This document shows positions 4,589-44,384 of a stretch of 64,000 nt of DNA, piece after piece. The translations under genes were made by a program, and so were the position numbers. The notes under the pieces are model-generated. The model saw only the letters and a list, made by a program, of their open reading frames with translations. It was not told where the DNA came from and ran no database searches. This stretch comes from a virus. Position 1 is the first letter of the stretch. The number at the start of each line of letters is the position of its first letter. The stretch covers positions 42,362 to 106,361 of the IMG/VR virus record IMGVR_UViG_3300034407_002547. One strand, given 5' to 3'.

Positions 4589-4966
4589 TTACCTCGGATA
4601 TCCTTTAAATGCTATAACTGGGCTTTCGGTGTGAACACCGTCAGGTTCTCGACTGCCTGTGTGCGACCCGTCTTCTTTACTAACCATCCCAAGTGCAGCA
4701 AACGCTTTCTTTGCCATATCTCTTTCTACATCAGAGAACGGGCTAATAAGACCATCGCCGCCAATCCAACTTTCTGGATCTGGCATGTTTTCATTGTTTC
4801 CTTCAGCGTCCATTCCGGCCATGGCGATAGTAGCACGATACATATCGTAGTAGCCTTTGCTTCTCACATGGCCAGGACTTGCTGCTTGATGCACATGGGG
4901 CGCTTTGCCTTTCCTGTGCTTAAAACGCAAGCCTCTTTCTTCCTGTAGGAATTCAATAGCTCTCAT
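4589..4966 (-). CDS. Putative internal head protein with capsid-targeting N-terminus (125 aa)
   Basis: It begins MRAIEFLQE|ERG, which resembles the T4 internal-protein targeting peptide (MKTYQEFIAE|A) that the prohead protease cuts after Glu. The next 25 residues are basic and histidine-rich (RFKHRKGKAPHVHQ), compatible with contact with packaged DNA after cleavage. The remainder (SPGHVRSKGYYDMY, then DVERDMAKKAF) is unknown to me. It begins in a TAATG overlap with the stop of the preceding gene. The targeting role is inferred from the N-terminus alone. Confidence 0.6.
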   Translation of the reverse strand: MRAIEFLQEERGLRFKHRKGKAPHVHQAASPGHVRSKGYYDMYRATIAMAGMDAEGNNENMPDPESWIGGDGLISPFSDVERDMAKKAFAALGMVSKEDGSHTGSREPDGVHTESPVIAFKGYPR

Positions 4967-5256
4967 TAGATATTATAAACTCCGCTGTTTGCACTTGAAG
5001 CAGTGCCTACTTCGGCAGCTGTAGAATTACTACCAACAATAGTAAGCTGATTGCCGACACCTATATACATGTATCTTGTGTTGTTTGCAGGAATAACTAT
5101 TGGCGCACTATAGATAGTGTCTGCATTTTCATTTGGCTTACCTGCAAGAATAACTTGTGCTGTTACGCTGTTACTGCCAGTTGAGATCATTGCTTTATCT
5201 GTAGCCCAGGCTTGTGCTGAAATTGCACCTGCGTATACTGTTGATTGACTAGCCAT
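4966..5256 (-). CDS. Small beta-rich virion protein (96 aa)
   Basis: Begins MASQSTVYAGAI; rich in Ala, Ser, Thr and Val with the appearance of a small beta-sandwich (IVIPANNTRYMYIGVG near residue 54). No cysteines or signal peptide. AAGGA precedes the ATG. Located between putative internal head proteins in the same transcription unit, so a structural or decoration role is the best guess. No specific family recognised. Confidence 0.6.
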   Translation of the reverse strand: MASQSTVYAGAISAQAWATDKAMISTGSNSVTAQVILAGKPNENADTIYSAPIVIPANNTRYMYIGVGNQLTIVGSNSTAAEVGTASSANSGVYNI

Positions 5257-5266
5257 TTATTTTTCC

Positions 5267-6193
5267 TTATGATGTAATCTTGCTTACTGGTTTTTTACTC
5301 CACATACGGCAACTCCAGTAGCCTGCTTTTGTTCTATCTTTTTTATCTGAGCAATTGTGTCTGGCACGGAAGTTCTTACGAGCGTCTGGGTTGTCTCTGC
5401 GGATTTCCATGTTAGGATCGCCAAAGTTTACTTTTTTAACATTTCCTGTTTTAGGATCTTTTACATACACTTTAAACTTTTTAACATCGCCCCTTGATGG
5501 CTTGCCAAGCTTAACTTCACGTCCTTGGTATTTGGCTTCATTGGTTTTGCCATACTCCAAGGTTTGCATCACATTGTTAACCATTGCGCTAACATCACTT
5601 GAGCCCATTTCTTCATCATCAGCATGAAGTTCAGCTTCTTGTTCAATTGCGTCAATCATACGGTCAACACCGTACTGTCTCACCAGATCGCTAAATCCCC
5701 CCATGGTCATGAGTCTACGCTTGATAATGTCTGCTACATCGTCTGAATCTTCAACAAGTTCAAAACTTTCAGCAAGTGCAGTGTGATGTTTTTTCATATA
5801 GAATGCAGCAGTATCTTTGTTACCCATGCGTTCGTGAAATTTTGCTTGATCAGAATAGTTAGTTGTAACCTCGGCTGATTCAAAATAATTTGTTGCTGCT
5901 TCTCTACCGTGCTTTTTAATGAACTCTGCTTTACTCATGTTTTCAGCATCGTCAAGTTGAGAATCTTTCATCTTGCCTTCGGATACTTCGTCGTCGTCAC
6001 TCATTGTGCAGCCGCAGCCTTCGAGCACCGATAGTCCATATTCATCTGCTTCAATAACCACACCATCATCGTTGTGACTTGCAACATCAAACTCTAGTGC
6101 TAGTTCTTCGTTAACAACAGCGACAAATACATCGCCCTCAATCATAAACGACTGTGCTCTTTCGCTTTCGGAGATGTATTTTGTTAAACTCAT
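5267..6193 (-). CDS. Head-associated protein with targeting N-terminus and C-terminal FRARH/YWSC domain
   Basis: 308 residues. The N-terminus MSLTKYISE|SER fits the capsid-targeting pattern. A long acidic, helical middle follows (EADEYGLSVLEGCGC, then DDDEVSEGK). The C-terminal ~75 residues contain VYVKDPKTGNVKKVNFGD, then KNFRARHNCSDKKD and YWSCRMW. This arrangement, with conserved His and two Cys that could bind zinc, recurs at the end of phage head or portal-associated proteins in several marine phages. It overlaps the upstream gene by four bases (ATGA), implying coupled translation. Confidence 0.7.
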   Translation of the reverse strand: MSLTKYISESERAQSFMIEGDVFVAVVNEELALEFDVASHNDDGVVIEADEYGLSVLEGCGCTMSDDDEVSEGKMKDSQLDDAENMSKAEFIKKHGREAATNYFESAEVTTNYSDQAKFHERMGNKDTAAFYMKKHHTALAESFELVEDSDDVADIIKRRLMTMGGFSDLVRQYGVDRMIDAIEQEAELHADDEEMGSSDVSAMVNNVMQTLEYGKTNEAKYQGREVKLGKPSRGDVKKFKVYVKDPKTGNVKKVNFGDPNMEIRRDNPDARKNFRARHNCSDKKDRTKAGYWSCRMWSKKPVSKITS

Positions 6194-7614
6194 TTTGTTT
6201 TAAACTCTTGATAAAGTGACATTAGGTGACTTTCAGTGATATCTTCAAGATTGACTGTGTTATTACCCATACCCTGCATAGCCAATGCATTGTCGCCAGG
6301 GTTGTTAGGATTAACTTGCTGCTTCTGTCTGTTAAGACCACCACTAATTGTATTAACAAGTGTTTCGGTATCAGCTGTTGCAGTATCGTCAGCAGCATTA
6401 GCAAAATCTTGATCTTCGGCAACAGCTTCGTGTTGCATACCAAGCGAACCAAGTCCTGCTAGCTGTAGCAATGAACCAAGTTTGGCTGCATCTTCGTCTG
6501 TTGCAGTAACAGTTAGGCTTGGGCCGCTTTGATCATTCATACTAACGTTGATATTCATACCTTCCATTAGTCTCATTGCATTTTGAGCAATATCGTTGCC
6601 TTCGTACACACTTGCATGTTTGTACAATGATTTACCGTTGCCACTTGCATCTGTTGCAACTGCGCCGGCTGTTGTTGTTTCTTCAACTTTTTCTTCCTCG
6701 TCGACTTGTACATCATCATCTAATTTGTGTGCTGTGTCTTTACTCATTGTAGTTTTGTGTGTTTTGCCGCCAAACTCGAAATCTTTTTTACCTGCACGTG
6801 CTGCCGCCGCTGCCGCTTGATTAAATGCATTTTCGTCAATGTCATCTTCGTTAACTGCATCTTCGTTCATGTCATTGTGTCTACGGAAGTCTGCCACGAA
6901 GTCTTGTAGTGTATCGCCATCTAGGTAGCGCACTAATTCGCTGAAGACTGGGTGAGCTGCACAGTCTAATTCGTCGCATAACTCCCAAATAGACTCAGCA
7001 CTATCGCCCACTGCTTCTTCAACTGACTCTTCCCATGGTGCTTTCTTTAGAGATACTTTTTTTCTTTCTTCGCCACGCTCTGGTTCGGATGCTTTTGCTA
7101 ATGCCTGCATGTGTGCACGTTCATCTTCATCTGATGATTCGCTTACTGCATTACAATTGCAATGCTTGCAATCTGGTGGACAGTTACAGTCTTCTGCTTT
7201 AACATCACTGCCGCAGCACTTGTCCGAACAATGTGTGTCTTTTGCTTCCGCAACATCTTCATCATCTAACACTACTTCGCTTGCAATTCTACTAGCAGCA
7301 GATTCGGCAGTTTCGCTTTCGCCGGCCGCTTCTTCAATTTCACTTAGAGGCACACCTGCTAGTTCAGCTAAACGTGACATCATAGCATCTTTAAGCTCAG
7401 CTTTGATAGTCCCAGCAGTTTCTTTAACTTCTTTGAGTTTGGCAAGGTTGTCCATGCTTAGTGCAGTGTCTGCAAAAATACTGTCATCTTCGGATATAGC
7501 TTTAGTTGATTCTTTTTTGAGGTTTTCAATATTACCAGCTGTGTCACTTTCCATGATAGGAGTTTTATTAGCAACGTCTTGTAATTTTGCGAGTGTTGTG
7601 TAAATGTTGTCCAT
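6190..7614 (-). CDS. Large acidic virion/internal protein with a cysteine cluster
   Basis: 474 residues, strongly acidic and low in hydrophobic segments. Residues about 130-156 hold a dense Cys cluster (HCSDKCCGSDV, then CNCPPDCKHCNC), ten cysteines in under 30 residues, which suggests a metal-binding knuckle. The rest is Glu/Ala/Ser-rich helical sequence with a DNPGDNALAMQGMG tail. No known family recognised. It is flanked by genes with capsid-targeting N-termini and overlaps the next gene by four bases. A role as a prohead-core or internal head protein is inferred from context only. Confidence 0.65.
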   Translation of the reverse strand: MDNIYTTLAKLQDVANKTPIMESDTAGNIENLKKESTKAISEDDSIFADTALSMDNLAKLKEVKETAGTIKAELKDAMMSRLAELAGVPLSEIEEAAGESETAESAASRIASEVVLDDEDVAEAKDTHCSDKCCGSDVKAEDCNCPPDCKHCNCNAVSESSDEDERAHMQALAKASEPERGEERKKVSLKKAPWEESVEEAVGDSAESIWELCDELDCAAHPVFSELVRYLDGDTLQDFVADFRRHNDMNEDAVNEDDIDENAFNQAAAAAARAGKKDFEFGGKTHKTTMSKDTAHKLDDDVQVDEEEKVEETTTAGAVATDASGNGKSLYKHASVYEGNDIAQNAMRLMEGMNINVSMNDQSGPSLTVTATDEDAAKLGSLLQLAGLGSLGMQHEAVAEDQDFANAADDTATADTETLVNTISGGLNRQKQQVNPNNPGDNALAMQGMGNNTVNLEDITESHLMSLYQEFKTK

Positions 7615-7625
7615 GTGTTTGTTCC

Positions 7626-8234
7626 TTAACTATCTGCTTTACCAGCGGAACTTTTCACCGTTGGAATTTTGTTTTTACCCATAATTGGGCTGTCTTTACC
7701 AGCTGGAGTATCGGTGTTGTAAACTGCTGGTGCAGTTTTACCGCCTGCAATTGTGTAATCACTTGCATACTCGTTGCCTACTACTTCACGCTGATAGGGG
7801 TCAGCACTGTAGTATTCGCTAGCTTCTTTAGACTCAGCACTATTTGGCCCGTATTCAGTACCAAGTAGCGGATTTGTTTGATCGTCATATCCATCACGCT
7901 CGTTGTCAACGCTGTCAGCATATCCAGCTTGTTGAATAATCATATGGTTTGGATCCATACCCATTAACCTGGCAATCTGCATAATCTGTGGCGGAGTTGC
8001 TGGATAGTTAAACGATACGTCAAAGAACGACATGCCTTCGTTTTCAACACCTGGAAAATCTTGAAGTGTTTTTTGAATTGGTAATCTTTTTACATCGGAC
8101 ATAGTAATAACGTCAAACTGTTGAAGTTTTTCTTCTAGTGCGTTAATAAACTTTGCATCCGTATCACCGAGTATTTTGATTCTATAATCAAAAGTTTTTT
8201 TAGACTCGGTTAGATAGCTTGCGAATGATTTCAT
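7626..8234 (-). CDS. Putative internal head protein with capsid-targeting N-terminus (202 aa)
   Basis: Begins MKSFASYLTE|SKK, the closest match in this window to the T4 IPIII targeting peptide, with Leu-Thr-Glu before the presumed gp21 cut. The following ~80 residues (FDYRIKILGDTDAKFI, then DVSFNYPATPPQIMQIARLMGM) look like a small alpha/beta domain of ferredoxin-like size. The C-terminal half is hydrophilic and probably disordered. Preceded by a GCTAAATA late promoter and an AGGGGA ribosome site, so it has a proper leader. Confidence 0.65.
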   Translation of the reverse strand: MKSFASYLTESKKTFDYRIKILGDTDAKFINALEEKLQQFDVITMSDVKRLPIQKTLQDFPGVENEGMSFFDVSFNYPATPPQIMQIARLMGMDPNHMIIQQAGYADSVDNERDGYDDQTNPLLGTEYGPNSAESKEASEYYSADPYQREVVGNEYASDYTIAGGKTAPAVYNTDTPAGKDSPIMGKNKIPTVKSSAGKADS

Positions 8235-8824: not shown

Positions 8825-9265
8825 TTATTTGCGTTTTTTACCTTGATGGAAAATATCATCCTCTGTAATAACTCTGAAAGTAATACCACTTCGTTTGCAC
8901 CAAGCTTGTGCCGCTGCCCACTTAGCATAGTTAACAGCAACAACAGCTTTTTCTTTATTTGATGCTTTGCTTTCAAGCACACTTTGTTTCTTGGGCTTGA
9001 TTTCGATTAGTTCAGTAATAACTTTGTTGTGTCGATTTTTATATTGTATAAGAAAATCCGGGATGTAGCGTGATTGCTTTCCAGTAAGTGGATTTCTATA
9101 CGGAATAGCAAGACTTTCGCTTGCCCAACTTACAATGTTGTCATTGGTATCGCAGAATCGCATAAATGCTAATTCCCACCCACTGCGATATTTAGGCACG
9201 CCTTTGCCTGAATATTTAGATTGATTTAGTACTGTGTAGTAGCCTTGTTGGTACTTATTGGCCAT
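8825..9265 (-). CDS. 4: Head completion protein, gp4-like (TnsA-type nuclease fold)
   Basis: 146 residues (T4 gp4: 150). The conserved pattern is visible: YRSGWELAFMRFCD, then VSWASESLAIPYRNPLTGK, RYIPDFLIQY and ELIEIKPKKQ. The last two blocks carry the PD-(D/E)xK acidic and Lys residues of the TnsA/gp4 endonuclease fold. In T4, gp4 (gp50) is needed to finish DNA-filled heads before tail joining. It is adjacent to gp16, as expected for late head maturation. Confidence 0.9.
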   Translation of the reverse strand: MANKYQQGYYTVLNQSKYSGKGVPKYRSGWELAFMRFCDTNDNIVSWASESLAIPYRNPLTGKQSRYIPDFLIQYKNRHNKVITELIEIKPKKQSVLESKASNKEKAVVAVNYAKWAAAQAWCKRSGITFRVITEDDIFHQGKKRK

Positions 9266-16948: not shown

Positions 16949-17326
16949 CTATTTTTTTGGTTTAACTGTTTTTTTAGTTCCAGTTGTGCCTTTAAGGCTA
17001 CTCTTAGGCGGCTTGTATGCTTTTTGAACTTTGCCGCCGCTAGTAACACTAGACTTGCGCATCTTGTTGAGCATGCTTAATAACTTGCTTGCCGGATTTA
17101 CACGTTTAGTCTTCTTGGCTTTGCGAGCTGCTTGAGCACTCTTGGTCTTGCGAGTCTTCTTCATTTGAGCTCGCTTGGCTTGATCAATCGGAGCATCGCA
17201 ATCTTTTGCATTGCTAACAACACGACCGTTTCGTGGGCCGCTAGTACAACGCCATTTGGTTTTCAGTTTGTTACCTGTACGACTAAAAACCATTTCGTGT
17301 TCGGTGATAAATTCTTCTGCTCTCAT
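16949..17326 (-). CDS. Very basic internal head protein with capsid-targeting N-terminus (125 aa)
   Basis: The start at 17326 is set by a TAATG overlap with the stop of gp13; the frame is open a few codons further upstream inside gp13. It begins MRAEEFITE|HEM, matching the targeting/gp21 cleavage pattern. A short zinc-like or basic region (KWRCTSGPRNGRVVSNAKDC) is followed by about 80 residues dominated by Lys, Arg, Ala and Thr (MKKTRKTKSAQAARKAKKTK), like a histone tail. It is likely a nucleoid-type protein packaged with DNA, comparable in principle to T4 internal proteins. Confidence 0.75.
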   Translation of the reverse strand: MRAEEFITEHEMVFSRTGNKLKTKWRCTSGPRNGRVVSNAKDCDAPIDQAKRAQMKKTRKTKSAQAARKAKKTKRVNPASKLLSMLNKMRKSSVTSGGKVQKAYKPPKSSLKGTTGTKKTVKPKK

Positions 17327-19476: not shown

Positions 19477-19505
19477 TTGACATTGTGATATGTTAATGCT
19501 ATATT
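19477..19505 (+). promoter_or_regulatory. Host sigma-70-type promoter (plus) of the small early genes
   Basis: TTGACA (19477-19482), 17-base spacer, TATATT (19500-19505). It drives the four small genes at 19.5-20.7 kb. It lies 34 bases from the opposing promoter's -35 box. Confidence 0.82.
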
Positions 19506-19535
19506 ATATATAAGTTAGCAAGCATGGAGCATACA

Positions 19536-19787
19536 ATGTTTAGAATTCCTAGTTTTTATAAGTTTGATACTTCCTTTGAAGATGCTAAAACAACAATCTC
19601 CTGTTACGGACGTGGTGATTTACTCGAAGGAATGCAAGCAATGAATCGTGTGTGGGACGAACATTGCGCTAGTTACACAAGTGACAATGCTCGATTTGAT
19701 GATGATTCAGATTTTTACGAATTCTACGAAGCAGAAGTAAATGCTTACAACAAAGTTTACGAAACAATGCAACCACTTTTTGCGTAA
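19536..19787 (+). CDS. Small acidic early protein (83 aa)
   Basis: Begins MFRIPSFYKFDTSFED and is rich in Asp, Glu and Tyr (FDDDSDFYEFYEAE). GGAG sits six bases before this ATG; an in-frame ATG at 19524 is possible but overlaps that ribosome site. No recognised family. As the first gene after a strong early promoter it may act against a host function. Confidence 0.65.
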   Translation: MFRIPSFYKFDTSFEDAKTTISCYGRGDLLEGMQAMNRVWDEHCASYTSDNARFDDDSDFYEFYEAEVNAYNKVYETMQPLFA

Positions 19788-19798
19788 GGAGATATAAA

Positions 19799-20203
19799 AT
19801 GGAAACTTTTACATACAGCGATGATGGTTTCTCAGACCTTCACAAAGATGTTTACGGATTTCGCCCACGTGGCATTATCCTTAGCAACTGGAACATTCTG
19901 CCACCTGCTGAAAAGAAAGTTCGTTGGGATCAACTTTGTGAAGAGCTTGAAGCAAATACTAAGTTTAAAAACGAACAAGAAGTTAAGGCAGTAGCTCGGT
20001 TTGAAGATCGGATTCAAGATGCAATTAGTCTTGGTGCTAGTAACCGTGTTGAGGCTCTTCGCTGGATTACTGGCTCTGAAACTTTTTATCACGGACAAGA
20101 TGTAGAGCATTTTGTTTGGGAGCAAGGTATTTTATTTACTAAGTATGGTAAGCAATTAGTAAAAGATCTTTTACTAGTTGTTGAATATAAGGAGTGTGCA
20201 TAA
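19799..20203 (+). CDS. Conserved phage protein of the 'DLHKDVYGFRP' type (134 aa)
   Basis: The N-terminus METFTYSDDGFSDLHKDVYG followed by FRPRG is a pattern I know from many unrelated phages and some plasmids, always annotated as hypothetical. The remainder is helical and charged (ELEANTKFKNEQEVKAVARFEDR), with a tyrosine/tryptophan-rich end. AAGGAG lies before the ATG. It is the second gene in the early unit. Confidence 0.75.
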   Translation: METFTYSDDGFSDLHKDVYGFRPRGIILSNWNILPPAEKKVRWDQLCEELEANTKFKNEQEVKAVARFEDRIQDAISLGASNRVEALRWITGSETFYHGQDVEHFVWEQGILFTKYGKQLVKDLLLVVEYKECA

Positions 20204-20392
20204 ATGAGCATGAATCACGATGCAAAGCCTATAGACGAAGAACTAGAACGTATGAAGGCCGAGTTTCTTGCTAAAGGCGGCGAAGTTACCAAAGGAAAAA
20301 CCAAAGCTATGGCAAGTGAACTTGGCATCAGCAACAATACATGGAATAACAAACTGACCAAAGCTGAAAAAGATGCAAAGGCAGGTAAATGA
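20204..20392 (+). CDS. Small basic helix-turn-helix-like protein (62 aa)
   Basis: It starts directly after the previous stop codon, with AAGGAG upstream. Residues 33-55 (TKAMASELGISNNTWNNKLT) look like a short helix-turn-helix, and Lys-rich flanks support DNA binding. It could be a small regulator, but the fold is inferred by eye only. Confidence 0.5.
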   Translation: MSMNHDAKPIDEELERMKAEFLAKGGEVTKGKTKAMASELGISNNTWNNKLTKAEKDAKAGK

Positions 20393-20673
20393 TCAAGAGT
20401 TTGTTATTAATAGGAATGTTAGGATCAGCAGCTGATGCCAGAGAAGCAATAGTTATCGGTAGTGGTGTTGATGATAAAGGATTTAGGTGGTCTACTGGAT
20501 ACACCGATGAGTATAGTTCATGTGGTGATGTACTTGAAAAATTAAATAAAGATTTCTCAAATTTTCAAATCGAATACACTTATAATTATCGCACATACGA
20601 TCAAGGATTTGTGGTATATTATACTGACAATGGTGGTACCACACTCTGGATGTGCCATCACAATTCGTTTTAA
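20389..20673 (+). CDS. Small secreted or periplasmic protein with signal peptide (94 aa)
   Basis: The N-terminus MIKSLLLIGMLGSAADAREA has a Lys, a hydrophobic core and an Ala-Asp-Ala cleavage site typical of Sec signal peptides. The mature part is about 76 residues, aromatic-rich, with one Cys near each end (SSCGD and WMCHHN) that could form a disulfide. It overlaps the previous gene by four bases. An envelope role such as superinfection exclusion or lysis control is possible but not shown. Confidence 0.6.
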   Translation: MIKSLLLIGMLGSAADAREAIVIGSGVDDKGFRWSTGYTDEYSSCGDVLEKLNKDFSNFQIEYTYNYRTYDQGFVVYYTDNGGTTLWMCHHNSF

Positions 20674-20689
20674 TCAATAGCATGCAAGC

Positions 20690-20697: not shown

Positions 20698-20715
20698 CAT
20701 GCAGAGGAATACTGT

Positions 20716-26279: not shown

Positions 26280-29200
26280 TTACATCATTAGTGCTAGTAC
26301 TTCGATAACGCCTTCTCCGCCTTCGTGAGCTTCGATTGCTTTACCAATTACTGTACCCATTGCTGCATCGTTGTTAGCCATTGCACGACCATTACCAGCT
26401 GATACCATCAAGTCACCTGCTGCTACTGGACCTGTTACCTTACAAGGAACACGACCTGCTAGTGCAAGAGCAACACCTTCTTGTGTGCTGTTCATCAAGT
26501 GAGCTGGATCAGTTGAGATAATGCCTGCTACTGCACGACAGTTTTCACTGTCACATGCTGCAACTTTGCCTTCTCCGCCAAACATTACAACAGTACCTGC
26601 TTCAATGTCTGCATCAGCTGCATACATCTCTGCCAAGTCAGCGTATTGTGCTGAAGTTGCTGTTGCTGTGATTGTACCGGCACTAAAGTTACCACTACCA
26701 TCGCGGAATACAATTGTATTAGCTGTGCTTGCGCTTGTAGCGTTTGATGTAACAGTAAATGTTCCACCTTCACTACTTACACTACCACTAATACCACTAC
26801 CTGATGTAGCACCTGTACCAACATAGTTACCAGTTGTATCAGTACCTAGTGCAACCGAGTTAGCTGCAATAGTTGCTGTTAGTGTAGCATTACCAAGGTT
26901 AGTAAGTGTTGCACTACCAGTCAAGTCACCAGCAAGTGTAATTGTTGGATCAGCAGTATTTGTAGTTGCAATAGTAATACCTGAACTACCATCAAAGTTA
27001 GCAGTACCAGTTACAGCGCCACTGAGTGCAATTGCTCTAGGTGTAGTTAATTTTGCAGCACTACCAGTTGTGTTTTGGTTAAGTGTACCAACTGTTGCTG
27101 TTAGTGTAGCATCACCTAGGTTAGTAAGTGTTGCACTACCAGATAGATCACCAGCAAGTGTAATTGTTGGATCACTTGTTGCAGTTGTTGCAATAGTAAT
27201 ACCTGAACTACCATCAAAGTTAGCAGTACCAGTTACAGCACCACTAAGTGCAATTGCTCTAGCAGTTGAAAGTGTGTCAGCACTACCAGTTACATCACCT
27301 ACTACGTCACCAGTCATACCAGCCGCAGTAAAGGTTGCACTTAATGTGCCGCCTCTTGTAACTGTAACATCGCCATTTAAGGCAGTAGCAACACTAGTTG
27401 TGCCATTTTGGATCTGTGTAGCGTCAATGCCGGTTAGCTGACTACCGTCACCAATAAAGCTGGTTGCCGCAATGTTACCACTAGCAGTTAAGTTACCAGT
27501 TACATTAGCACCGTCTGTTGTAGCAATCATAGATGCTACACCACCAGCAGTAATGTTAACGTTACCGTTTGCACCTGCAAAATCAACAAGCGAACTACCA
27601 CTTTGGATACTATCACCAGCAATTTCAACTGCGTCATCAATTACACCTGGTGTTGTACCATCTGGGCCAAAGAAGCCGATAGCATTACCGCCTGTGTTTT
27701 TAATAACAACGTTACCAAGTGTGATTGTACTACCTGCTAGGAACAATTCGTTCCAGCGTTTAGTATCACTACCAAGGTTTTGTGCTACGTTTGCTGCTGG
27801 CAACAAGTTACCAGTAACTTCAACAGTTGGTGCACCACTTAGTGCTTCAACTATTGCAGTTGCATCACCGTTTGATAGAGAAACAATACTCGTTGTGGTT
27901 GTGATTTCACGAACTTCAATTGTATCGCCTGTTGCCGGAGCTTCAGTAAATGTCAATGCTGTTCCGCTAACACCGTATGCTGTAGTTGGTAGCTGTACCA
28001 CACCGTTAATACTAACAATAACACTAGCAGTTGTTTGAGTTGACTGTAGCGTAAATGCTACTGTACTATCATCACCTGAGAATGTTTCACTAGCAATAAC
28101 TGTGAATTCAACACCAGCTGTTGCCCAGCTGTCATTATCGTAGAATTCAAACTGATCCAATGAAGTATTGAAACGAATCATACCAGTTGCTGGGGTACCA
28201 GGTCGTTGTGCTGTAGAACCAACCGGAATCATCATACTTTCAGTGCCTGTTACTTTAAGCGTAGCACCTGCGGTTTGAGTAGCGTTTTCACCGATAGCAA
28301 CTGTTGAAGTACCTGCATCTGCTAGTACATATGCATTACCTGCTGCGTTCTCAATGAGAACATCAACATCTTGACTGTCAGTGTTTAGTGTAATAGTTTC
28401 ACCAGCACTATCAATACTATCAGTATTAACGGTAATGTTACCGAAAGTACCTGCATCTGCAAAGACACCAGTAGTATTGACATTACCTGAGTCAACATTG
28501 CCACTGAATGTAGCAGCAACACCACCTGTGATTGTACCAGCTGTTGAACTCAATGTTCCATCAGTTAGTGTACCACCTGTTACAGTACCACTTGCTGTTA
28601 GTGTAGTTGCATCAACCAATGTTGTGTTAACATTACCTGAGTCAACATTGCCACTGAATGTAGCAGCAACACCACCTGTTAGTGTACCGGCAGTAATACT
28701 TGCAGTACCGTCTGTTAGTGTGCCACCTGTTACAGTGCCACTTGCAGTTACAGTAGTTGCATCAACCAATGTTGTGTTAACATTACCACTATCAACGTTA
28801 CCACTGAATGTAGCAGCAACACCACCTGTGATTGTACCACCAGTTGAACTTAGTGTACCATCAGTTAGTGTACCACCAGTTACAGTACCACTTGCAGTCA
28901 ATGTAGTTGCATCAACCAATGTTGTGTTAACATTACCTGAATCAACATTGCCACTAAATGTAGCAGCAACACCACCTGTAATACTACCAGCATTTAGACT
29001 TGCAGTACCATCAGTTAGTGTAGCACCTTCGACAGTACCTGACGCTGTTACAGAGACAGTTGTTACATCTGCTTGTGATACAATATTACCACCAGTTACA
29101 TTACCGACTGCTGTTAGTGCCTGTGCTTCAAGTGCACCACCTGTAATCAAGTTACCAGCAGTTACATTACCACTAAACGTAGCAGCAACACCACCTGTAA

Positions 29201-32200
29201 TACTACCAGCAGTAATACTTGCAGTACCGTCTGTTAGTGTGCCACCTGTTACGGTGCCACTTGCAGTCAATGTAGTTGCATCAACCAATGTTGTGTTAAC
29301 ATTACCTGAATCAACATTGCCGCTGAATGTAGCAGCAACACCACCTGTGATTGTACCAGCTGTTGAACTTAGTGTACCATCAGTTAGTGTACCGCCTGTT
29401 ACAGTGCCACTTGCATCTACAGTAGTTGCATTGACTCTAGTTGTGTTAACATTGCCCGAGTCGACATTACCACTGAATGTAGCAGTTACGCCACCTGTGA
29501 TACTACCTGCGTTAAGACTTGCTGTGCCATCAGTTAATGTGCCAGCTTGTACTTGACCACTGAATGTAGCAGCTACGCCACCAGTTACAGTACCACCAGT
29601 TGAACTTAGTGTTCCGTCAGTTAGTGTACCACCTGTTACAGTGCCACTTGCATCTACAGTAGTTGCAGCAACTCTAGTTGTATTAACGTTACCACTGTCA
29701 ACATTACCACTAAATGTAGCAGCAACACCACCTGTAATACTACCAGCATTTAGACTTGCAGTACCATCAGTTAGTGTAGCACCTTCAACTGTGCCTGTTG
29801 CAGTTAGACTTGTACCAGTAGCAGCACCAATATCTGGTGTTACAAACTGTGCACCTGCTTTAACAACAACTGCATCAGCAGTGATTGTAGTTGTAGTTTC
29901 GTCAACATTTACAGATAGCTCATTACCTGCTTTAGATAGACCGTCGCCTGCTACAATCGAACCAGCACCTGAGAACTGACTCCAGGTAATAGCAGTTGTA
30001 CCCATAGTAACCGGAGCGTTTGTTGTACAAACCCAACCACTATCAAGGTATACTGTGCCTTCTTCAACAAAAGTAAACGCACCTGGAATTTCACTAGTAG
30101 GTGAACCATCCATGTCTTCTGCACGAGTTAGAACGTAGGCAGTGCCTGCGTCACCTAGTGTAGTAACAACATAGATACCATTGTTTGCGGCAGTAGCTTC
30201 GTCTTTAACGAGTAGTCTGTCGCCTTGTGCCATTACAACATCATCTTGATCAGCTAGTGCACCGTTTGCATTACCTGTTAGTGTAGCGCCTACACCAGCT
30301 GTGCCGTTGTCGTATGTGTTAGCTGGCAGGGCAGAAGCAGTTGCGGCTCTAGTTGAACCTTTAACGTCAAGACCTTCTGCAACACTGTCAACATAGCCTT
30401 TATTGGCTGCGTCACTGTCTTGTACTGGATCTGCAAGAGAAACAATTTTTGCACTACTTGCATCAATAACGCCTGTGCCACTTGGAAGAAGAACAATGTC
30501 TTCATTTGTGCCAGTTGCAGTAAGAGTTACCGAAGTACCTTTAACGTCAGTTGTGTTAACCACACTAGCATTTACGTTGCCAGTTGCAGTTACGTCTAGT
30601 CCTTGTACTGTACCAGTAAATGTAGCATCGGTTCCGCCTGTGATTGCACCAGAGTTGATACTCAATGTGCCATCAGTTAGTGTACCAGCTTGTACTTGAC
30701 CACTGAATGTAGCAGCTACGCCGCCTGTTAGTGTACCAGCATTAAGACTTGCAGTACCATCAGTTAGTGTACCACCAGTTACAGTACCACTTGCTGTTAG
30801 TGTAGTTGCATCAACTAGTGTTGTGTTAACATTACCACTGTCAACATTACCACTGAATGTAGCAGTTACGCCACCTGTGATACTACCACCAGTTAGTGTA
30901 GCAGTGCCATCAGTTAGTGTGTCGCCAGTTATAGTACCACTTGCATCCACAGTAGTTGCATTGACTCTAGTTGTGTTAACATTACCCGAATCAACATTAC
31001 CACTAAATGTAGCAGCAACTCCACCTGTTAGTGTGCCACTAGTAATACTTGCGGTGCCATCAGTTAGTGTACCGCCTTCAATTGTGCCGCTTGCGGTTAC
31101 AGATACTGTTGTTACGTCTGCTTGTGATACAATATTACCACCAGTTACGTTACCAACGGCTGTTAGTGCTTGTGCTTCAAGTGCGCCACCTGTAATCAAG
31201 TTACCGGCAGTTACGTTACCACTGAATGTAGCAGCTACGCCGCCTGTTAGTGTACCAGCAGTAATACTTGCTGTGCCATCAGTTAGTGTACTACCTGTTA
31301 CAGTGCCACTTGCATCTACGGTAGTTGCATTGACTCTAGTTGTGTTAACATTACCACTGTCAACATTACCACTGAATGTAGCAGTTACACCGCCTGTGAT
31401 ACTGCCACTATTAAGACTTGCTGTGCCATCAGTTAGTGTACCACCTGTTACAGTGCCACTTGCAGTCAATGTAGTTGCATCAACTAGTGTTGTGTTAACA
31501 TTACCACTGTCAACATTACCACTGAATGTAGCAGCAACACCACCTGTTAGTGTGCCACTAGTAATACTTGCAGTGCCATCAGTTAGTGTACCACCTGTTA
31601 CAGTGCCACTTGCAGTTACGCTAACAGTTGTTACATCTGCTTGTGATACAATATTGCCACCAGTTACGTTACCAACGGCTGTTAGTGCTTGTGCTTCAAG
31701 TGCGCCACCTGTAATCAAATTACCAGCAGTTACGTTACCACTGAATGTGGCACTCACGCCACCTGTAATTGCGCCGGCAGTAATACTTGCTGTGCCATCA
31801 GTTAGTGTGCCACCTGTTACAGTGCCACTTGCATCTACGGTAGTTGCATTTAATGTAGTTGCATCAACTAGTGTTGTGTTAACATTACCTGAATCAACAT
31901 TACCACTGAATGTAGCAGTTACACCACCTGTGATTGCACCCGAGTTGATACTCATTGTGCCATCTGTTAGTGTCGGTGCTGTAACAGAAGTACCAGCTTC
32001 GATTGTAGCATCAACGTTTAGTGCTGTTGTTACGTTACCACTTGGTGCCATGTTGACCAATGTAAGGTCTGCAACTTGTGCATCAGCATAACTTGATAGC
32101 GCAACCACGTTGCCACTTGCATCTGCTGATGTGAACCCTGCTGCAAATTCACTTGCACTTTCGTCCCAAATCCATGCGATGTTAGTTGAATCCCCACGTT

Positions 32201-32462
32201 CGCCAACAAAGCCAATGTCAAAAACTGGCGAGCCAGTTTGATCTTTAGCTAATAGCAAGATTGGATCTTCAATTAGTGTGTTTACAGTATCAAGTGTTGT
32301 ACTTGTACCTTGTACTGTTAGATTTCCTGTTACGGTAAGGTTACTACCGTAGACCAGATTATCTGCCAGCTTACCTGCACTAATACTATTATCAACTAGT
32401 TTAGAACTAGCAACGATAGCACCGTCGGTAATCTGGTTATTCTTAATTCTGGTTATAGCCAT
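26280..32462 (-). CDS. Giant repeat-containing tail fibre (2060 aa)
   Basis: The N-terminus (MAITRIKNNQITDGAIVASS) and the DSTNIAWIWDES segment are typical of marine T4-like fibre attachment regions. About 20 units of a roughly 50-residue repeat follow, built from TLTDGTAS, GGVAATFSGNV, DSGNVNTT and VDASGTVTGG. A non-repeat insertion (about residues 610-890; DAANKGYVDS, NNGIYVVTTLG) interrupts the array. Near residue 1490 is a FTEAPATGDTIEV module shared with neighbouring genes. The last ~120 residues are the YADLAE domain ending VIEVLALMM. It probably forms a trimeric beta-helical shaft. GGAGA precedes the ATG. Confidence 0.9.
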   Translation of the reverse strand: MAITRIKNNQITDGAIVASSKLVDNSISAGKLADNLVYGSNLTVTGNLTVQGTSTTLDTVNTLIEDPILLLAKDQTGSPVFDIGFVGERGDSTNIAWIWDESASEFAAGFTSADASGNVVALSSYADAQVADLTLVNMAPSGNVTTALNVDATIEAGTSVTAPTLTDGTMSINSGAITGGVTATFSGNVDSGNVNTTLVDATTLNATTVDASGTVTGGTLTDGTASITAGAITGGVSATFSGNVTAGNLITGGALEAQALTAVGNVTGGNIVSQADVTTVSVTASGTVTGGTLTDGTASITSGTLTGGVAATFSGNVDSGNVNTTLVDATTLTASGTVTGGTLTDGTASLNSGSITGGVTATFSGNVDSGNVNTTRVNATTVDASGTVTGSTLTDGTASITAGTLTGGVAATFSGNVTAGNLITGGALEAQALTAVGNVTGGNIVSQADVTTVSVTASGTIEGGTLTDGTASITSGTLTGGVAATFSGNVDSGNVNTTRVNATTVDASGTITGDTLTDGTATLTGGSITGGVTATFSGNVDSGNVNTTLVDATTLTASGTVTGGTLTDGTASLNAGTLTGGVAATFSGQVQAGTLTDGTLSINSGAITGGTDATFTGTVQGLDVTATGNVNASVVNTTDVKGTSVTLTATGTNEDIVLLPSGTGVIDASSAKIVSLADPVQDSDAANKGYVDSVAEGLDVKGSTRAATASALPANTYDNGTAGVGATLTGNANGALADQDDVVMAQGDRLLVKDEATAANNGIYVVTTLGDAGTAYVLTRAEDMDGSPTSEIPGAFTFVEEGTVYLDSGWVCTTNAPVTMGTTAITWSQFSGAGSIVAGDGLSKAGNELSVNVDETTTTITADAVVVKAGAQFVTPDIGAATGTSLTATGTVEGATLTDGTASLNAGSITGGVAATFSGNVDSGNVNTTRVAATTVDASGTVTGGTLTDGTLSSTGGTVTGGVAATFSGQVQAGTLTDGTASLNAGSITGGVTATFSGNVDSGNVNTTRVNATTVDASGTVTGGTLTDGTLSSTAGTITGGVAATFSGNVDSGNVNTTLVDATTLTASGTVTGGTLTDGTASITAGSITGGVAATFSGNVTAGNLITGGALEAQALTAVGNVTGGNIVSQADVTTVSVTASGTVEGATLTDGTASLNAGSITGGVAATFSGNVDSGNVNTTLVDATTLTASGTVTGGTLTDGTLSSTGGTITGGVAATFSGNVDSGNVNTTLVDATTVTASGTVTGGTLTDGTASITAGTLTGGVAATFSGNVDSGNVNTTLVDATTLTASGTVTGGTLTDGTLSSTAGTITGGVAATFSGNVDSGNVNTTGVFADAGTFGNITVNTDSIDSAGETITLNTDSQDVDVLIENAAGNAYVLADAGTSTVAIGENATQTAGATLKVTGTESMMIPVGSTAQRPGTPATGMIRFNTSLDQFEFYDNDSWATAGVEFTVIASETFSGDDSTVAFTLQSTQTTASVIVSINGVVQLPTTAYGVSGTALTFTEAPATGDTIEVREITTTTSIVSLSNGDATAIVEALSGAPTVEVTGNLLPAANVAQNLGSDTKRWNELFLAGSTITLGNVVIKNTGGNAIGFFGPDGTTPGVIDDAVEIAGDSIQSGSSLVDFAGANGNVNITAGGVASMIATTDGANVTGNLTASGNIAATSFIGDGSQLTGIDATQIQNGTTSVATALNGDVTVTRGGTLSATFTAAGMTGDVVGDVTGSADTLSTARAIALSGAVTGTANFDGSSGITIATTATSDPTITLAGDLSGSATLTNLGDATLTATVGTLNQNTTGSAAKLTTPRAIALSGAVTGTANFDGSSGITIATTNTADPTITLAGDLTGSATLTNLGNATLTATIAANSVALGTDTTGNYVGTGATSGSGISGSVSSEGGTFTVTSNATSASTANTIVFRDGSGNFSAGTITATATSAQYADLAEMYAADADIEAGTVVMFGGEGKVAACDSENCRAVAGIISTDPAHLMNSTQEGVALALAGRVPCKVTGPVAAGDLMVSAGNGRAMANNDAAMGTVIGKAIEAHEGGEGVIEVLALMM
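28490..31960 (-). repeat. Array of ~150-bp coding repeats inside the giant fibre gene
   Basis: The DNA repeats follow the ~50-residue protein unit. Stretches such as the codons for GGVAATFSGNV recur with only a few base changes, in two blocks (about 28.49-29.79 kb and 30.64-31.96 kb) around the non-repeat insertion. Some units are near identical, others carry short-form units (AQALTAVGNVTGGNIVSQ). High identity makes the array prone to unequal recombination and to misassembly. Edges are approximate. Confidence 0.85.
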
Positions 32463-40201: not shown

Positions 40202-40202
40202 C

Positions 40203-40267: not shown

Positions 40268-41479
40268 TTATGAGAACGAAAGGTTCTGTACAGCAATTTC
40301 ACCAACATAGTCACCGGCGTTGCCGAAGGACGATGCTGTGTTTGTTAGCTCAATATAGCCATAACGTGTCATAAAGGACACTACTGGCTCAAAGCTGGAC
40401 GGATCAAGAACAACGCCTGAACTCATTAGCGGTACGTATGGGCAATAGAACGCTGGTGCGTCTGTTTCACTTGCGCCTTTGTAGCCAACTAGTACTGGAG
40501 TTGTGTCGCCTGCGTATGAGTCACAGAATACACGCATTGTGCCATTCAATGTACCAACGAATTTAGTATTTGTTGGTGCTTCAAATGTGCCTTCTGTTGT
40601 GCGAGCAAATGCACTTGTTGTTGCACTCTGTAGCACTGTAAGTGCAGCAGGGGAAACAACAGCATAGTTGCCTGCGCCACGACGTGTACGCTGAGCGATC
40701 AAGTTAGCTGTGCGGTTGATTAGAACTGCAAGAGCTGCATGCTCGTCACCAACAAATGTTGCTGTACCTGATACTGTGGCTTGGTTGTATGTAAACTCAG
40801 TTGCTGCTAGCGAACGTAGAGAAAGTAGAATCTCTTGGTCGATTTCAGCAGTAATCTCTTGAGCAAGTGCTGCCATGATTTCAGCTTCAACGTCAATGCC
40901 GTGCATGGCTTGTGCGTCTTGTGCTGCTTCAAAAGTCCAGCGAGCTTGTAGCTTACGTGTTTTTGCTTCAACAGCTTGCTTGAGGATTTGTACGGAAATC
41001 TGACGACCGCCGGAACCTTCAAGTACTGCTGTGTTTGCACCTTGGTATGTGTTCTGTGCATTTTGTACAACGCCTGCTGTCACTGTGGACGCAGAGGAGT
41101 AAGCTTGTGCAATTTTAAATGGTGATAGAGCTTCGTCACCAGCGGCTGTACTTGTTGCGGCTGCTGAGTTATCTGTCATTGCGTTTGCATAACGAACACG
41201 TAGTGTGTGGATTTGGCCAACTGGACCAGTCATTGGCTGAACGCCGACTAGTTCGTTAGCAATAACAGTTGGCATAACACGTCTGATAACTGGTAGGATA
41301 ACACGGTTAAGTGTTGCTACGTTACCGGAAGAAGTTGAACCTGCTGTTGCGTTCTCTGCCAAGTGCTTGCGAGTGTTTTCTAGGATAACACCCATTGTTG
41401 AACGGCGTGAACCTTGAAGGCCTTCTAGGAGGGCTTCCTTGGTCTCACTCCATCTGTTTTCTAGTAGTTCTTGTGACAT
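40268..41479 (-). CDS. 23: Major capsid protein, gp23
   Basis: 403 residues (T4 precursor: 521). The T4-like pattern is clear: LNRVILPVIRRVMPTVIANELVGVQPM near residue 57 (quoted in part), GPVGQIHTLRVRYA, later RGAGNYAVVSPAALTVLQS and VLVGYKGASETDAPAFYCPYVPL. It forms the HK97-fold hexamers of the head. In T4 the N-terminal ~65 residues are removed by gp21; here a site near residues 39-42 (HLAENATAG, Leu-Ala-Glu) fits. GGAG lies before the ATG. No separate late promoter is seen, so it is transcribed with gp22, gp21 and the core genes. Confidence 0.97.
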   Translation of the reverse strand: MSQELLENRWSETKEALLEGLQGSRRSTMGVILENTRKHLAENATAGSTSSGNVATLNRVILPVIRRVMPTVIANELVGVQPMTGPVGQIHTLRVRYANAMTDNSAAATSTAAGDEALSPFKIAQAYSSASTVTAGVVQNAQNTYQGANTAVLEGSGGRQISVQILKQAVEAKTRKLQARWTFEAAQDAQAMHGIDVEAEIMAALAQEITAEIDQEILLSLRSLAATEFTYNQATVSGTATFVGDEHAALAVLINRTANLIAQRTRRGAGNYAVVSPAALTVLQSATTSAFARTTEGTFEAPTNTKFVGTLNGTMRVFCDSYAGDTTPVLVGYKGASETDAPAFYCPYVPLMSSGVVLDPSSFEPVVSFMTRYGYIELTNTASSFGNAGDYVGEIAVQNLSFS

Positions 41480-41500: not shown

Positions 41501-42592
41501 TTAAAGCCCTGCTAGGCGCTTAAGATCGATAACGTTATTAGCGTCATTTGTTTGTGATCTTTGTTGTTCGGCCTTAACAGTTTTGTTACCAGTAGATTCA
41601 ACAAGTGCTTCAGCTTTTTTAGTTGCTTTAGCTTCACTGAGTACTGCTGGCAAATACTTCTCAAATGCGTTCTTTAGACGAGATGTTTGAACGTTTTCAA
41701 GAAGATTAATCATTACTTCTCTCTTTTGATCGTTAAGAGGAGATAGTAGTTCGTCTAATGTAGCTTCCCGCTCATTAGCTTCACGAATGATTTTAATTTC
41801 ATGATTTTTGCTCTCAACAAGCTTTGCGGCTTGTTTTTGAGCAGTAACGGCTTCTGCCAACTTAATATCTTTATCTTCAATAGTAGCTAATAGCTTGCGT
41901 ACTTCTGCATTCTCATTGAGATGCGTGGCACCAAACTCTGTAGCATATGCTTCAAATATACGGCGACCAAAATTGTTCTCACGAGCAACCTTGATATCCT
42001 CTTTAAGTTGACTTAGTTCTTGCGTAAGATGAGTAGCAACAGTTGTTGACATCTTTTTAGCAGATTCTTTTACAAATTTACTTTTTAGACTATCAAGTTG
42101 TCCACGTGCTTCGCTGACAAGTTTTACTTTAGTTTCAACTAAGTCTTTCTTGTCTGCTGCGAATTCCTTGATTTCTTCGGCCAAAGCACTTACAATAAAA
42201 GATTCTAGCTTACCAAAACCTTCTGCTTGTACTTTGCGATCTGTGCGTAGTTCGCGAAGCTCTTCGGAAAGTTTTGATACCATAAAGTTATTAAATTTAT
42301 TAGCATTTTCTTTCATTGCTTTTGCGGCTTTTACACGGTCCTCTGCAAGCGCCTTTTTCTCTTCGTTAAGTTGAGCAATTTCTTCTTGCAGGCCTTCTGT
42401 TACCATTTTATCTAGGGCTTCTACCATCACTGTTTTATCATGATCATAGCGTTGTGCAAACTCCTCACGAAGTTCTGCACGAACTGTTTCTTTGGTCTCA
42501 TTCAACTTTGCTGCCCATTGTTCAGCAATAGCATTACGAGTATCCTCATTAACCAGGTCGCTATCTAGTAGTGGTTTAATAGCATCTAACAT
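41501..42592 (-). CDS. 22: Prohead core scaffold, gp22
   Basis: 363 residues (T4 gp22: 269), almost entirely charged helix with Lys/Glu heptads (QLNEEKKALAEDRVKAAKAM, TKVKLVSEARGQLDSLKSKF in pieces), the expected nature of the scaffold. The C-terminus ends in NDANNVIDLKRLAGL, like other gp22 proteins. It lies in the conserved order 21-22-23. AGGAG precedes the ATG, ten bases after gp21. It is degraded by gp21 during head maturation in T4. Confidence 0.9.
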   Translation of the reverse strand: MLDAIKPLLDSDLVNEDTRNAIAEQWAAKLNETKETVRAELREEFAQRYDHDKTVMVEALDKMVTEGLQEEIAQLNEEKKALAEDRVKAAKAMKENANKFNNFMVSKLSEELRELRTDRKVQAEGFGKLESFIVSALAEEIKEFAADKKDLVETKVKLVSEARGQLDSLKSKFVKESAKKMSTTVATHLTQELSQLKEDIKVARENNFGRRIFEAYATEFGATHLNENAEVRKLLATIEDKDIKLAEAVTAQKQAAKLVESKNHEIKIIREANEREATLDELLSPLNDQKREVMINLLENVQTSRLKNAFEKYLPAVLSEAKATKKAEALVESTGNKTVKAEQQRSQTNDANNVIDLKRLAGL

Positions 42593-42601: not shown

Positions 42602-43228
42602 CTAAATCTTTAGGTCCCTAATCAAACGAGATACTTCGTCTGTTAGGTACTTCTGTATTTTGTCGTTTGACCCTGACTCCCTAGCCATTTCAAGAACCGA
42701 ATGACCATGTTTCATGTTCAAAAGTCCTTCGTAAATAGCTTTAGGGTAAGCATTTGGAGCACTGGGCTGTGCGACTACATCGACAGTAACAATTTCAAAG
42801 TCACTGACGTGTCCGTTGTGTGGATCTACATTACCTGATCCACGACTAGATACTCCCAATCGTACACCTGACTGAAGCATAGTTTTAACTAGCTCACCCA
42901 TTGGTGTTGGAAGTATTTTTAGTTTTCCGTATCCATTTGGACCGTCCATCCACATACTAGTAATCATGTGACATACACGGTCTAAATTAATCTTAAGGTC
43001 ATCCGGGTGATCAACTTCACCAAGGACGCTATTGCCTTCTTTGATCTGTTCATTAAGAGTTTTAACTGCGTTAGAAATCTCACTCACAGGGTATATTCGC
43101 TCATTAGCGTTCTTAACACCACCTTGTATGCAGATGCCTTCCATAAAGAGTTCCTTACCGTCTTTCCCTTCAACAAGTTGAATTTGTGCGGTTTCGAAGG
43201 TAAGGTTTTCTCTAAGATAAAGAGCCAT
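42602..43228 (-). CDS. 21: Prohead protease, gp21
   Basis: 208 residues (T4 gp21: 212). The catalytic His is in NSVLGEVDHPDD at about residue 73, and the catalytic Ser in RLGVSSRGSGNV at about residue 126, as in the S78/U9 assemblin-like group. In T4 it cuts after Glu in (Leu/Ile)-X-Glu sites, which is the basis for the targeting-peptide predictions elsewhere in this window. AAAGGA precedes the ATG. Confidence 0.94.
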   Translation of the reverse strand: MALYLRENLTFETAQIQLVEGKDGKELFMEGICIQGGVKNANERIYPVSEISNAVKTLNEQIKEGNSVLGEVDHPDDLKINLDRVCHMITSMWMDGPNGYGKLKILPTPMGELVKTMLQSGVRLGVSSRGSGNVDPHNGHVSDFEIVTVDVVAQPSAPNAYPKAIYEGLLNMKHGHSVLEMARESGSNDKIQKYLTDEVSRLIRDLKI

Positions 43229-43242: not shown

Positions 43243-44040
43243 TTAGTCAATAACGCTTTTGGTATTCACACCAGACGCTTGAGCTAGTTGCGGTTTTGGC
43301 GCAGCTTTCATGTCTGGTCTTGTTGTGTTACCTTGGTCTTGTGCTTTTGGAGCAGGACGACCTTTTTCTGGAGCAGTGTCTGTGTCAACTGGTTTTGCTA
43401 CAGCACCTTTTGCGCCACTGTTTGCAGCCACAGTACTATGTGTTTGAGTACCAGCTGGTTCAGTAGTAACAGCTTTAGGAGCAGCAGTTAGGTCAACATT
43501 TTCTTCTAGACCTTCCATTTCCATGTCAACTTCGACTGTTTCGTCGTCCATGTCCATTTCTTCATGGTCATCTTCAACATCGTCGATGTCGTCGGTGTTG
43601 TCATCAACTTGACCCATGAGTTCTTCAAACTCGGACATAAGTTCGTCTAGTTTGTCTTCTAGGCCAACAACACGATCTTCAAGTTCTTCATCGTCGTCAT
43701 CATCTTCAACGTCGACGTCAACCATTTCGATTTCGTCTTCATCTTCAAAAGTAACACCTTGCTCTTCGGCTTCAATTTCGTCAATAAGATTATCAACTTG
43801 TGATCCGCCAAGTTCTGACTCGTCAATGGACTCGTCCATTTTGTCATCATACTCGATGTCTTTTTTAACTTCATCACCAGCTTTTTCAGCATGGTCATCT
43901 TTTTCTGCGTCTGATTCTTCAGACATAATGTCTTCATAGATTGTTTTAGATTGCTCTACAACGATCTCATGAAAGAGAGCTTTTGCTTTATCTTCTTCGT
44001 CGTTAATAACGAATTCGATAAGTTGTTCAAATTTATTCAT
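43243..44040 (-). CDS. Acidic prohead core protein (gp68/gp67-type)
   Basis: The start is MNKFEQLIEFVINDEEDK at 44040, preceded by GGAGGA and a late promoter at 44073; the longer frame to 44082 would begin above that promoter. 265 residues, with a conserved N-terminal ~45-residue helical motif (DKAKALFHEIVVEQS), a very acidic middle rich in Asp/Glu/Val (VDVEDDDDDEELEDR) and a Pro/Ala/Thr tail. It corresponds by position to the T4 core proteins between gp20 and gp21. Assignment to gp67 or gp68 is not possible. Confidence 0.78.
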   Translation of the reverse strand: MNKFEQLIEFVINDEEDKAKALFHEIVVEQSKTIYEDIMSEESDAEKDDHAEKAGDEVKKDIEYDDKMDESIDESELGGSQVDNLIDEIEAEEQGVTFEDEDEIEMVDVDVEDDDDDEELEDRVVGLEDKLDELMSEFEELMGQVDDNTDDIDDVEDDHEEMDMDDETVEVDMEMEGLEENVDLTAAPKAVTTEPAGTQTHSTVAANSGAKGAVAKPVDTDTAPEKGRPAPKAQDQGNTTRPDMKAAPKPQLAQASGVNTKSVID

Positions 44041-44072
44041 ATTGGTTCCTCCAAAGTATGGGCTCAGTATAA

Positions 44073-44080
44073 TATTTAAC
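44073..44080 (-). promoter_or_regulatory. Late promoter GTTAAATA of the core-protease-scaffold-capsid unit
   Basis: Minus strand, 32 bases before the ATG at 44040, with GGAGGA in the leader. It is the nearest promoter upstream of gp21, gp22 and gp23. Confidence 0.6.
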
Positions 44081-44134
44081 ATAGAATTAAAAAACTATGC
44101 AGTTATAGGAGTAAAATGGGTAGAAAACGATAAA

Positions 44135-44165
44135 TTTATTAGACTAAAAGAAAAAGTCTAATAAA
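44135..44165 (-). terminator. Stem-loop after the small core gene
   Basis: Perfect 11-bp inverted repeat TTTATTAGACT / AGTCTAATAAA with a nine-base A-rich loop (T-rich on the minus strand), directly past the stop codon at 44169. It lacks a clean T-tract after the stem, so it may be a weak terminator or a 3'-end protecting hairpin. Confidence 0.55.
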
Positions 44166-44168
44166 GTA

Positions 44169-44384
44169 TCACATTTGTGGCGGCGCTGGTGCATATTGTG
44201 CTTGCACCTTTTTCAGCTCTTCCTTTTTTTCATAATTTCGCATGTCATACATTTTACGCAATTTTGAAATTTGTTTAAGAGTTAGTTTAGTTTTGCGCAG
44301 TTCGCCGAGTTGCGGTGTAGAATTGTCATCCTCTACATCTTGGTATCCTTCTGGTGCTGCTTCAAAAAATTCAAATAGTTTCAT
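44169..44384 (-). CDS. Small head-core protein with targeting-like N-terminus (71 aa)
   Basis: Begins MKLFEFFEA|APEGYQDVEDD, similar to the other capsid-targeting N-termini (Phe-Phe-Glu before the likely cut). A basic helical second half follows (LRKTKLTLKQISKLRKM). It is conserved in size and position in marine T4-like phages, next to the core proteins, and may be the gp67 equivalent. A GATAAATA promoter that overlaps the stop of the radical SAM gene ends exactly five bases from its ATG. Confidence 0.7.
   Translation of the reverse strand: MKLFEFFEAAPEGYQDVEDDNSTPQLGELRKTKLTLKQISKLRKMYDMRNYEKKEELKKVQAQYAPAPPQM

Follow-up and report, generated by a model that had tools for sequence, protein, structure and literature searches.

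The window analyzed here is a stretch of 64,000 nucleotides, bases 42362 to 106361 of the 106,361-base IMG/VR record IMGVR_UViG_3300034407_002547, from a marine, jumbo-type phage. Its T4-type head module consists, in this order, of portal, radical-SAM-like gene, gene E, acidic protein in the gp67 position, prohead protease gp21, gp22-position protein, and major capsid protein gp23. Five minus-strand genes, here termed A to E, encode proteins whose short N-terminal peptides had been read in an initial annotation as T4-type capsid-targeting tags cut by gp21. All five peptides were present at the starts given there, a gp21 orthologue is encoded as claimed, and the protein bodies, described as otherwise unrelated, fell into separate families when 1670 proteins were clustered by BLASTP into 691 families. 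The start peptides of A to D (MRAIEFLQE/ERG, MSLTKYISE/SER, MKSFASYLTE/SKK, and MRAEEFITE/HEM, the slash marking the predicted cut) finish on the cleavage motif of T4 gp21, [IL]-x-Glu. Coordinates are window positions unless stated otherwise, and "own record" denotes the whole 106-kb IMG/VR record. Genes were called with a simple caller made for this analysis, so starts are approximate; for D, the list of open reading frames (ORFs) begins at TTG 17341, and the gene caller prefers ATG 17326. "By reading" marks an identity assigned from reading the sequence.

Table 1. Proteins A to E, the head module, and other genes of the window mentioned in the text
Feature	Position	Strand	Length (aa, amino acids)	Remarks
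Protein A	4589-4966	-	125	predicted tag MRAIEFLQE at 4940-4966, variable linker, conserved domain ending ...AFKGYPR
Protein B	5267-6193	-	308	predicted tag MSLTKYISE at 6167-6193; C-terminal phrog_7595 domain, also in 26 phage records
474-aa protein	6190-7614		474	rejected as a further tagged protein
Protein C	7626-8234	-	202	predicted tag MKSFASYLTE at 8205-8234; predicted helix 4-10, then compact alpha/beta domain
gp4-like head completion gene	8825-9265			by reading
Protein D	16949-17326	-	125	strongly basic; predicted tag MRAEEFITE at 17300-17326
2060-aa protein	26280-32462		2060	perhaps tail fiber
Major capsid protein gp23	40268-41479	-		predicted cleavage after HLAE; LAE codons 41354-41362
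gp22 (scaffold)-position protein	41501-42592	-		phrog_10922, function not given there; between gp21 and gp23
gp21-type prohead protease	42602-43228	-		Peptidase_S77, E value 5.5e-26
Acidic protein, gp67 position	43243-44040	-		placed by position beside gp21 only; start MNKFEQL chosen by reading
Protein E	44169-44384	-	71	MKLFEFFEA(AP); between portal and acidic core-like gene (phrog_13986)
Radical-SAM-like gene	44393-45415			by reading; within the head module, portal on one side, gene E on the other
Portal	45856-47577			by reading

The peptides were compared with rules established for T4, taken from PMC9026906, PMC3012670, and PMC5694885. gp21 cuts after L/I-X-E, T4 core proteins included, and mutants of internal protein III (IPIII) indicate that the hydrophobic residues 4 and 7 govern targeting while 8 and 10 govern processing; Asp10 blocks processing and leaves targeting unaffected (PMC9026906). 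The capsid-targeting sequence (CTS) may, according to the same source, be a general device of T4-like phages for loading various proteins. The initial annotation gave MKTYQEFIAE as the start of the T4 internal proteins, which is correct for IPII and IPIII; IPI starts otherwise and has TITE at residues 16 to 19. Its mature form is reported as 76 residues, equal to 95 minus 19, and it blocks a restriction enzyme (PMC3012670). A wider regular expression picked 9 of 263 called T4 genes, namely IPII, IPIII, gp24, gp22, gp21, 61.1, gp2, inh, and cd.2, the first five of which are named as gp21 substrates or likely ones (PMC9026906, PMC5694885). Gene 61.1 (NC_000866 18966-19130), annotated as hypothetical, starts MKTFKEFIKE/D, very near the CTS of IPII and IPIII.

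Family C showed how these positions behave in relatives. Its 14 members, none of them fetched by any tag C pattern and all recognized by BLAST with the whole protein, have a hydrophobic residue at position 4 in 14/14 and at position 7 in 14/14, an aliphatic residue at position 8 in 13/14, and Glu10 in 12/14. Four of the 14 are close or identical to the window protein; in the ten distant members (∼25 to 45% identity to window C or the query relative), positions 4, 7, 8, and 10 were kept in 10, 10, 9, and 8. The starts of the members from phages Atu_ph07 and Phosso were re-read in this analysis; the annotated Atu_ph07 start looks too far downstream (record L299, 2501-2590), and an upstream ATG gives MKTLQDYLTE/SKK. 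In a wider scan of 80 further loci, partly tag-biased, the downstream pattern used for retrieval was present in 18, and every one of these has [ILVM]xE at 9/10. The structural model of C places a helix at residues 4 to 10 ahead of a compact domain (predicted local distance difference test score [pLDDT] of 74 for the first ten residues; predicted template modeling score of 0.53). Searched against the PDB, it gave weak ferredoxin-like/S6 matches (best E value, 4e-4), and against BFVD, it matched unnamed phage proteins.

In family D, [IV]xE stood directly before HEMVF in 65/65 stretches (62 loci, three read twice). The junction reads ITE/HEMVF in 38 of the 65, and the other 27 carry six extra residues; all of these insertion variants (27/27) have [IV]xE at the new HEMVF junction, and 22/27 have lost the old Glu to K or N. 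Of the six retrieval patterns for D, one ran across the old junction, which makes the 38 partly tag-selected; none of the 27 insertion variants matches that pattern. A predicted cutting site is preserved where tag meets body in family D, a pattern also seen in T4 IPI. The insertion variants, most of which lost the first site, carry VNE, INE, or ISE at residue 15, and IPI likewise has a later site, with a propeptide of 19 residues ending in TITE, whereas its mature protein differs from the strongly basic D. The only phage match for D at E values up to 0.1 was Salicola phage SCTP-2 gp12, which as annotated starts MAKLIYGRSG and has no tag.

The nine aligned members of family A share an invariant M1, R2, E5, and F6; E9 is present in 8/9, and the ninth (L013) has LDE at 13. 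Residues 10 to 20 vary, with gaps, and this succession of an invariant start and a variable stretch has the look of a detachable tag. No phage match for A was found at E values up to 0.1, and its structural model is poor (pLDDT 52). Across a set of five records, regular-expression matches comprised 6/6 members of A, 5/5 of B (all with an [IL]xE tag), 4/4 of C, and 3/4 of D, the fourth D having a moved site; the C member of record G007 was missed by the gene caller and read separately. The long records among the near relatives are contigs of 300 to 345 kb, and the sister record G001 (IMGVR_UViG_3300035070_002626; 299,910 bases) encodes all four proteins A to D with 100% identity. The same motif recurs in the expected substrate of the encoded protease: gp23 of this clade has [LIV]xE at the predicted site in 31/31 variants (68 sequences), despite small insertions and deletions.

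Because these residues are conserved in relatives, share the specificity of the clade's gp23 site, and agree with the IPIII positions (fully in C, within a 9-residue register in A and B), we read the first 9 to 10 residues of proteins A to D as capsid-targeting propeptides like those on T4 internal proteins, attached to new cargo families, and we put the probability of this reading at roughly 0.75. By analogy with T4, the short amphipathic peptide would bind the prohead core (a gp22-type scaffold), so that each protein is built into the prohead. A gp21-type protease would then cut after [ILV]-x-Glu, as expected in gp23; the motif, its conservation, and the gp23 site all point this way. The tag would leave, and the mature protein would stay with the packaged DNA and probably enter the host with it. 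We infer such packaging, cleavage, and injection for the window's own A to D. The "histone-like basic protein" of the initial annotation fits D by composition only (mature isoelectric point of 11.4; 35 K+R versus 4 D+E in 116 residues), and D would act as a basic DNA-binding internal protein.

The likeness to the CTS of IPII and IPIII lies in N-terminal position, length, hydrophobic residues 4 and 7, aliphatic residue 8, and Glu10, exactly so in C; A and B are alike as 9-mers, and D is alike in the processing residues only. Three of the four tags have 9 residues, one short of the T4 range of 10 to 19, and that of C has 10. As in T4, the peptides are carried by unrelated proteins and a gp21-type protease is encoded; the cargo bodies differ from the T4 internal proteins, however, and cleavage here is predicted. 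IPII, IPIII, and some family C members do match the same PHROG, "internal head protein," which is the sole shared PHROG match, weak (E values of 0.0015 to 0.009) and made via the N-termini. Head proteins of the phiKZ-type phage SPN3US are likewise cut after Glu by a prohead protease; phiKZ-type giants have several propeptides of >100 residues and no confirmed gp22 counterpart (PMC5694885), whereas this phage has an S77 protease, gp23, and a gp22-position gene.

Several observations, from the families as well as from the statistics given below, weigh against reading the peptides of A to D as T4-type propeptides. Protein D has no hydrophobic residue at 3/4 (Ala and Glu), the equivalent of position 4, and fails the T4-derived four-position rule, which makes the targeting half of D less T4-like. 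Proteins A and B match the T4 targeting positions only in the 9-residue register (3/4 and 6). A relative of A (L015; 26% identity), left out of the alignment, starts quite differently as read. Among proteins with the C-terminal domain of B, a clear tag was seen by eye in 10/76, and most others lack one. Finally, Glu10 is lost in two of the 14 family C members, PA5oct (MKSFRDYYDA) and Phosso (MKNFYEYLSS), both of which keep positions 4 and 7; cleavage is thus not universal in family C.

These last two proteins, of which the PA5oct orthologue carries an electrospray ionization-tandem mass spectrometry (ESI-MS/MS) note in its annotation (found in the virion), would suit an arrangement in which the N-terminal helix docks the proteins to core or shell and is retained in the mature virion, with a Glu that is incidental or is a cutting site only in some phages. 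Protein E, which keeps F/Y at residue 7 in 25/26 variants and has no conserved Glu, would suit it as well. We nevertheless consider targeting without processing an unlikely account of the set, given that Glu10 persists in most of family C, that [IV]xE in family D stands at the junction even where the first site was lost, and that the tag motif agrees with the gp23 site. Since PA5oct gp23 still has its FLVE site, there is no sign of a changed protease specificity in that phage. The C proteins of PA5oct, 121Q, and Atu_ph07 have orthologous bodies, with structural or MS annotation in PA5oct and 121Q; that of PA5oct lacks the processing residues, whereas those of 121Q and Atu_ph07 (re-read start) keep LTE. 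With its cutting residues lost and its docking residues kept, PA5oct C appears to mirror in nature what the T4 mutants showed.

The likeness could also be fortuitous: a short hydrophobic start containing a Glu is common, and the selection was made by eye. Chance was assessed with internal positions and column shuffles as controls. The T4-derived pattern [FY][ILVM]xE with E at 9 to 10 occurred in 4/110 own-record proteins of at least 60 aa, where other position pairs averaged 0.25 (Poisson P = 1.3e-4; 1/1000 column shuffles); with one random member per family it occurred in 7/613 versus a mean of 1.25 (Poisson P = 3e-4), but 20/1000 shuffles reach that count. The four-position rule was matched by 3/116 own-record proteins (A, B, and C), a count that 199/2000 column shuffles reach. 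It stood out in the 300-kb sister record (10/362; 1/2000 shuffles), was not significant in three other records (152, 81, and 418 of 2000), and was borderline for family representatives (52/2000); the four-position count of T4 itself fails the same shuffle (145/2000). Among 217 families shared by three or more of the four large records, [hydrophobic][ILVM]xE at 8 to 11 was kept in every record by 4, versus 0 to 3 for 20 internal windows, and the looser [ILVM]xE gave no clear excess at the family level (7 versus 1 to 7). Clear false matches occur as well, ClpP-like proteins (identity by reading) also matching the four-position rule. The motif within a single genome is weak evidence, and single-genome statistics settle nothing either way. 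What makes the tag more than chance is position-specific conservation in relatives: with those very functional positions retained among the ten distant C members, and with the site migrating in family D, coincidence appears highly improbable.

Nor did the motif predict which proteins of PA5oct were noted by MS (439 coding sequences used; EST35_0334 to 0339 left out). A strict T4-like regular expression, rejected as a predictor, matched 0/92 MS-noted versus 1/347 other proteins; the looser motif matched 3/92 versus 9/347 (P = 0.48), and the four-position rule matched 2/92 versus 2/347 (P = 0.19). A post hoc rule (K/R at 2, hydrophobic-x-E, E at 8 to 11) separated 6/92 from 4/347 (P = 0.007) and deserves little weight, with a P of 0.07 inside 44 to 247 kb and of 0.56 without K/R at 2.

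Tags of this kind might not mark cargo. T4 core proteins are likewise cut after L/I-X-E (PMC9026906), and A, B, and C sit among late structural genes, as would be expected if the tagged proteins, like T4 gp22 and gp67, were scaffold or core components lost from the head on degradation instead of remaining with the DNA. Family C, however, has a compact conserved domain and is noted in PA5oct virions, and D is basic; gp21 is noted in those virions too, so a core protein can be detected there. On balance we judge a scaffold role improbable. That family C stays in the head is supported indirectly by the PA5oct annotation and the PHROG names: phrog_14802, "virion structural protein," was matched by 6/10 family C members, and relatives are annotated as structural in 121Q and PBECO4. 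The 121Q gene lies two genes after a gp4-like head completion gene, and window C likewise follows such a gene.

Protein E stands apart from A to D. As the initial annotation had proposed, N-termini were aligned across relatives, and the site that was kept in A to D, with its [ILV]xE and the same motif in gp23, was not conserved in E. Only 20 of 58 relatives have Glu at residue 8; Asp takes its place in 22, Asn in 9, and Gln in 7. MKLFEFFEA itself contains no [IL]xE. Protein E was consequently rejected as the bearer of a cleaved tag, and the claim of gp21-cut tags is supported for four of the five proteins. Its PA5oct orthologue (82921-83142; 36% identity over 55 residues) is ESI-MS/MS noted and starts MKINDIITE/GYY. 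Glu12 of E aligns with Glu9 of that orthologue; by reading, there is no aliphatic residue two before Glu12, which is not kept in every variant. Given this MS-noted orthologue, E may be a head protein that is cut in some lineages, but its N-terminus is not conserved as a gp21 substrate.

Similar starts occur on other small proteins. In G001, four small ORFs lie at 63605-65499 on the minus strand; a 9-residue [ILV]xE peptide opens every one of them, and three continue with compact motifs: DCSGH.AGY, CWKGY, and a DUF5872-like sequence. Four CWKGY proteins were found, one per large record, with a Glu one residue before the motif. The DUF5872-like proteins, below the Pfam cutoff and grouped by BLAST, have a tag-like start in three records (MKINDVLNE, MRATEFIVE, and MKYFDLFE) and differ in the remainder, and that of G007 has no tag; the large ones are G003 80772-82220 (MRATEFIVE; subthreshold GNAT match) and G002 19482-20993 (MKYFDLFE). 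The G001 cluster and the DUF5872-like proteins, few as these sequences are, suggest a loading label common to changing cargo. More broadly, and only tentatively, at somewhat less than even odds, the tag may be a mobile address label across T4-type jumbo phages that loads fast-changing, small, effector-like proteins, with targeting and cleavage evolving separately (the site migrates in D and is lost in PA5oct C).

The mechanism is already known; the cargo families are new, as is the separation of targeting from cutting in PA5oct. No description of tags in marine T4-type jumbo phages was seen in the capsid-targeting papers searched (T4, P1, P22, and phiKZ-type; subscription journals lay outside the search). 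The main text of the CBB paper lacks the terms capsid targeting, internal head, internal protein, and cleaved, and the phAPEC6 paper lacks cleav- and propeptide. If the propeptide reading of A to D is true, the N-terminus helps predict which uncharacterized proteins of uncultured jumbo phages travel in the head; such proteins would be candidates for first-minute host takeover or anti-defense, and "hypothetical proteins" would become testable packaged cargo.

By gp21, the closest named phages include Sinorhizobium phage Phosso, the PA5oct group, Atu_ph07, Salicola phage SCTP-2, and Vibrio phage 2.275.O; a DNA-level search with window positions 15000 to 38000 matched no named phage. An S77 protease was present in 8/14 records holding B, C, or D relatives and in 8/10 of those of >100 kb, a tally that leaves out two further records fetched through gp21 itself. 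The acidic protein beside gp21 was rejected as a sequence relative of T4 gp67, to which BLASTP shows no likeness. The 474-aa protein between B and C was rejected as a further tagged protein, its start not being conserved in six sequences; nor did BLASTP relate it to the correspondingly placed PA5oct gene. Elsewhere in the own record, a 180-aa protein (window coordinates -35918 to -35376) starts MKSKAQLIQE/N, a possible further tag, and a possibly unrelated G002 protein starts MRSNEQLVQE/A. The 2060-aa protein of the window consists of many near-identical repeats (ASGTVTGGTLTDGTAS...) and is perhaps a tail fiber.

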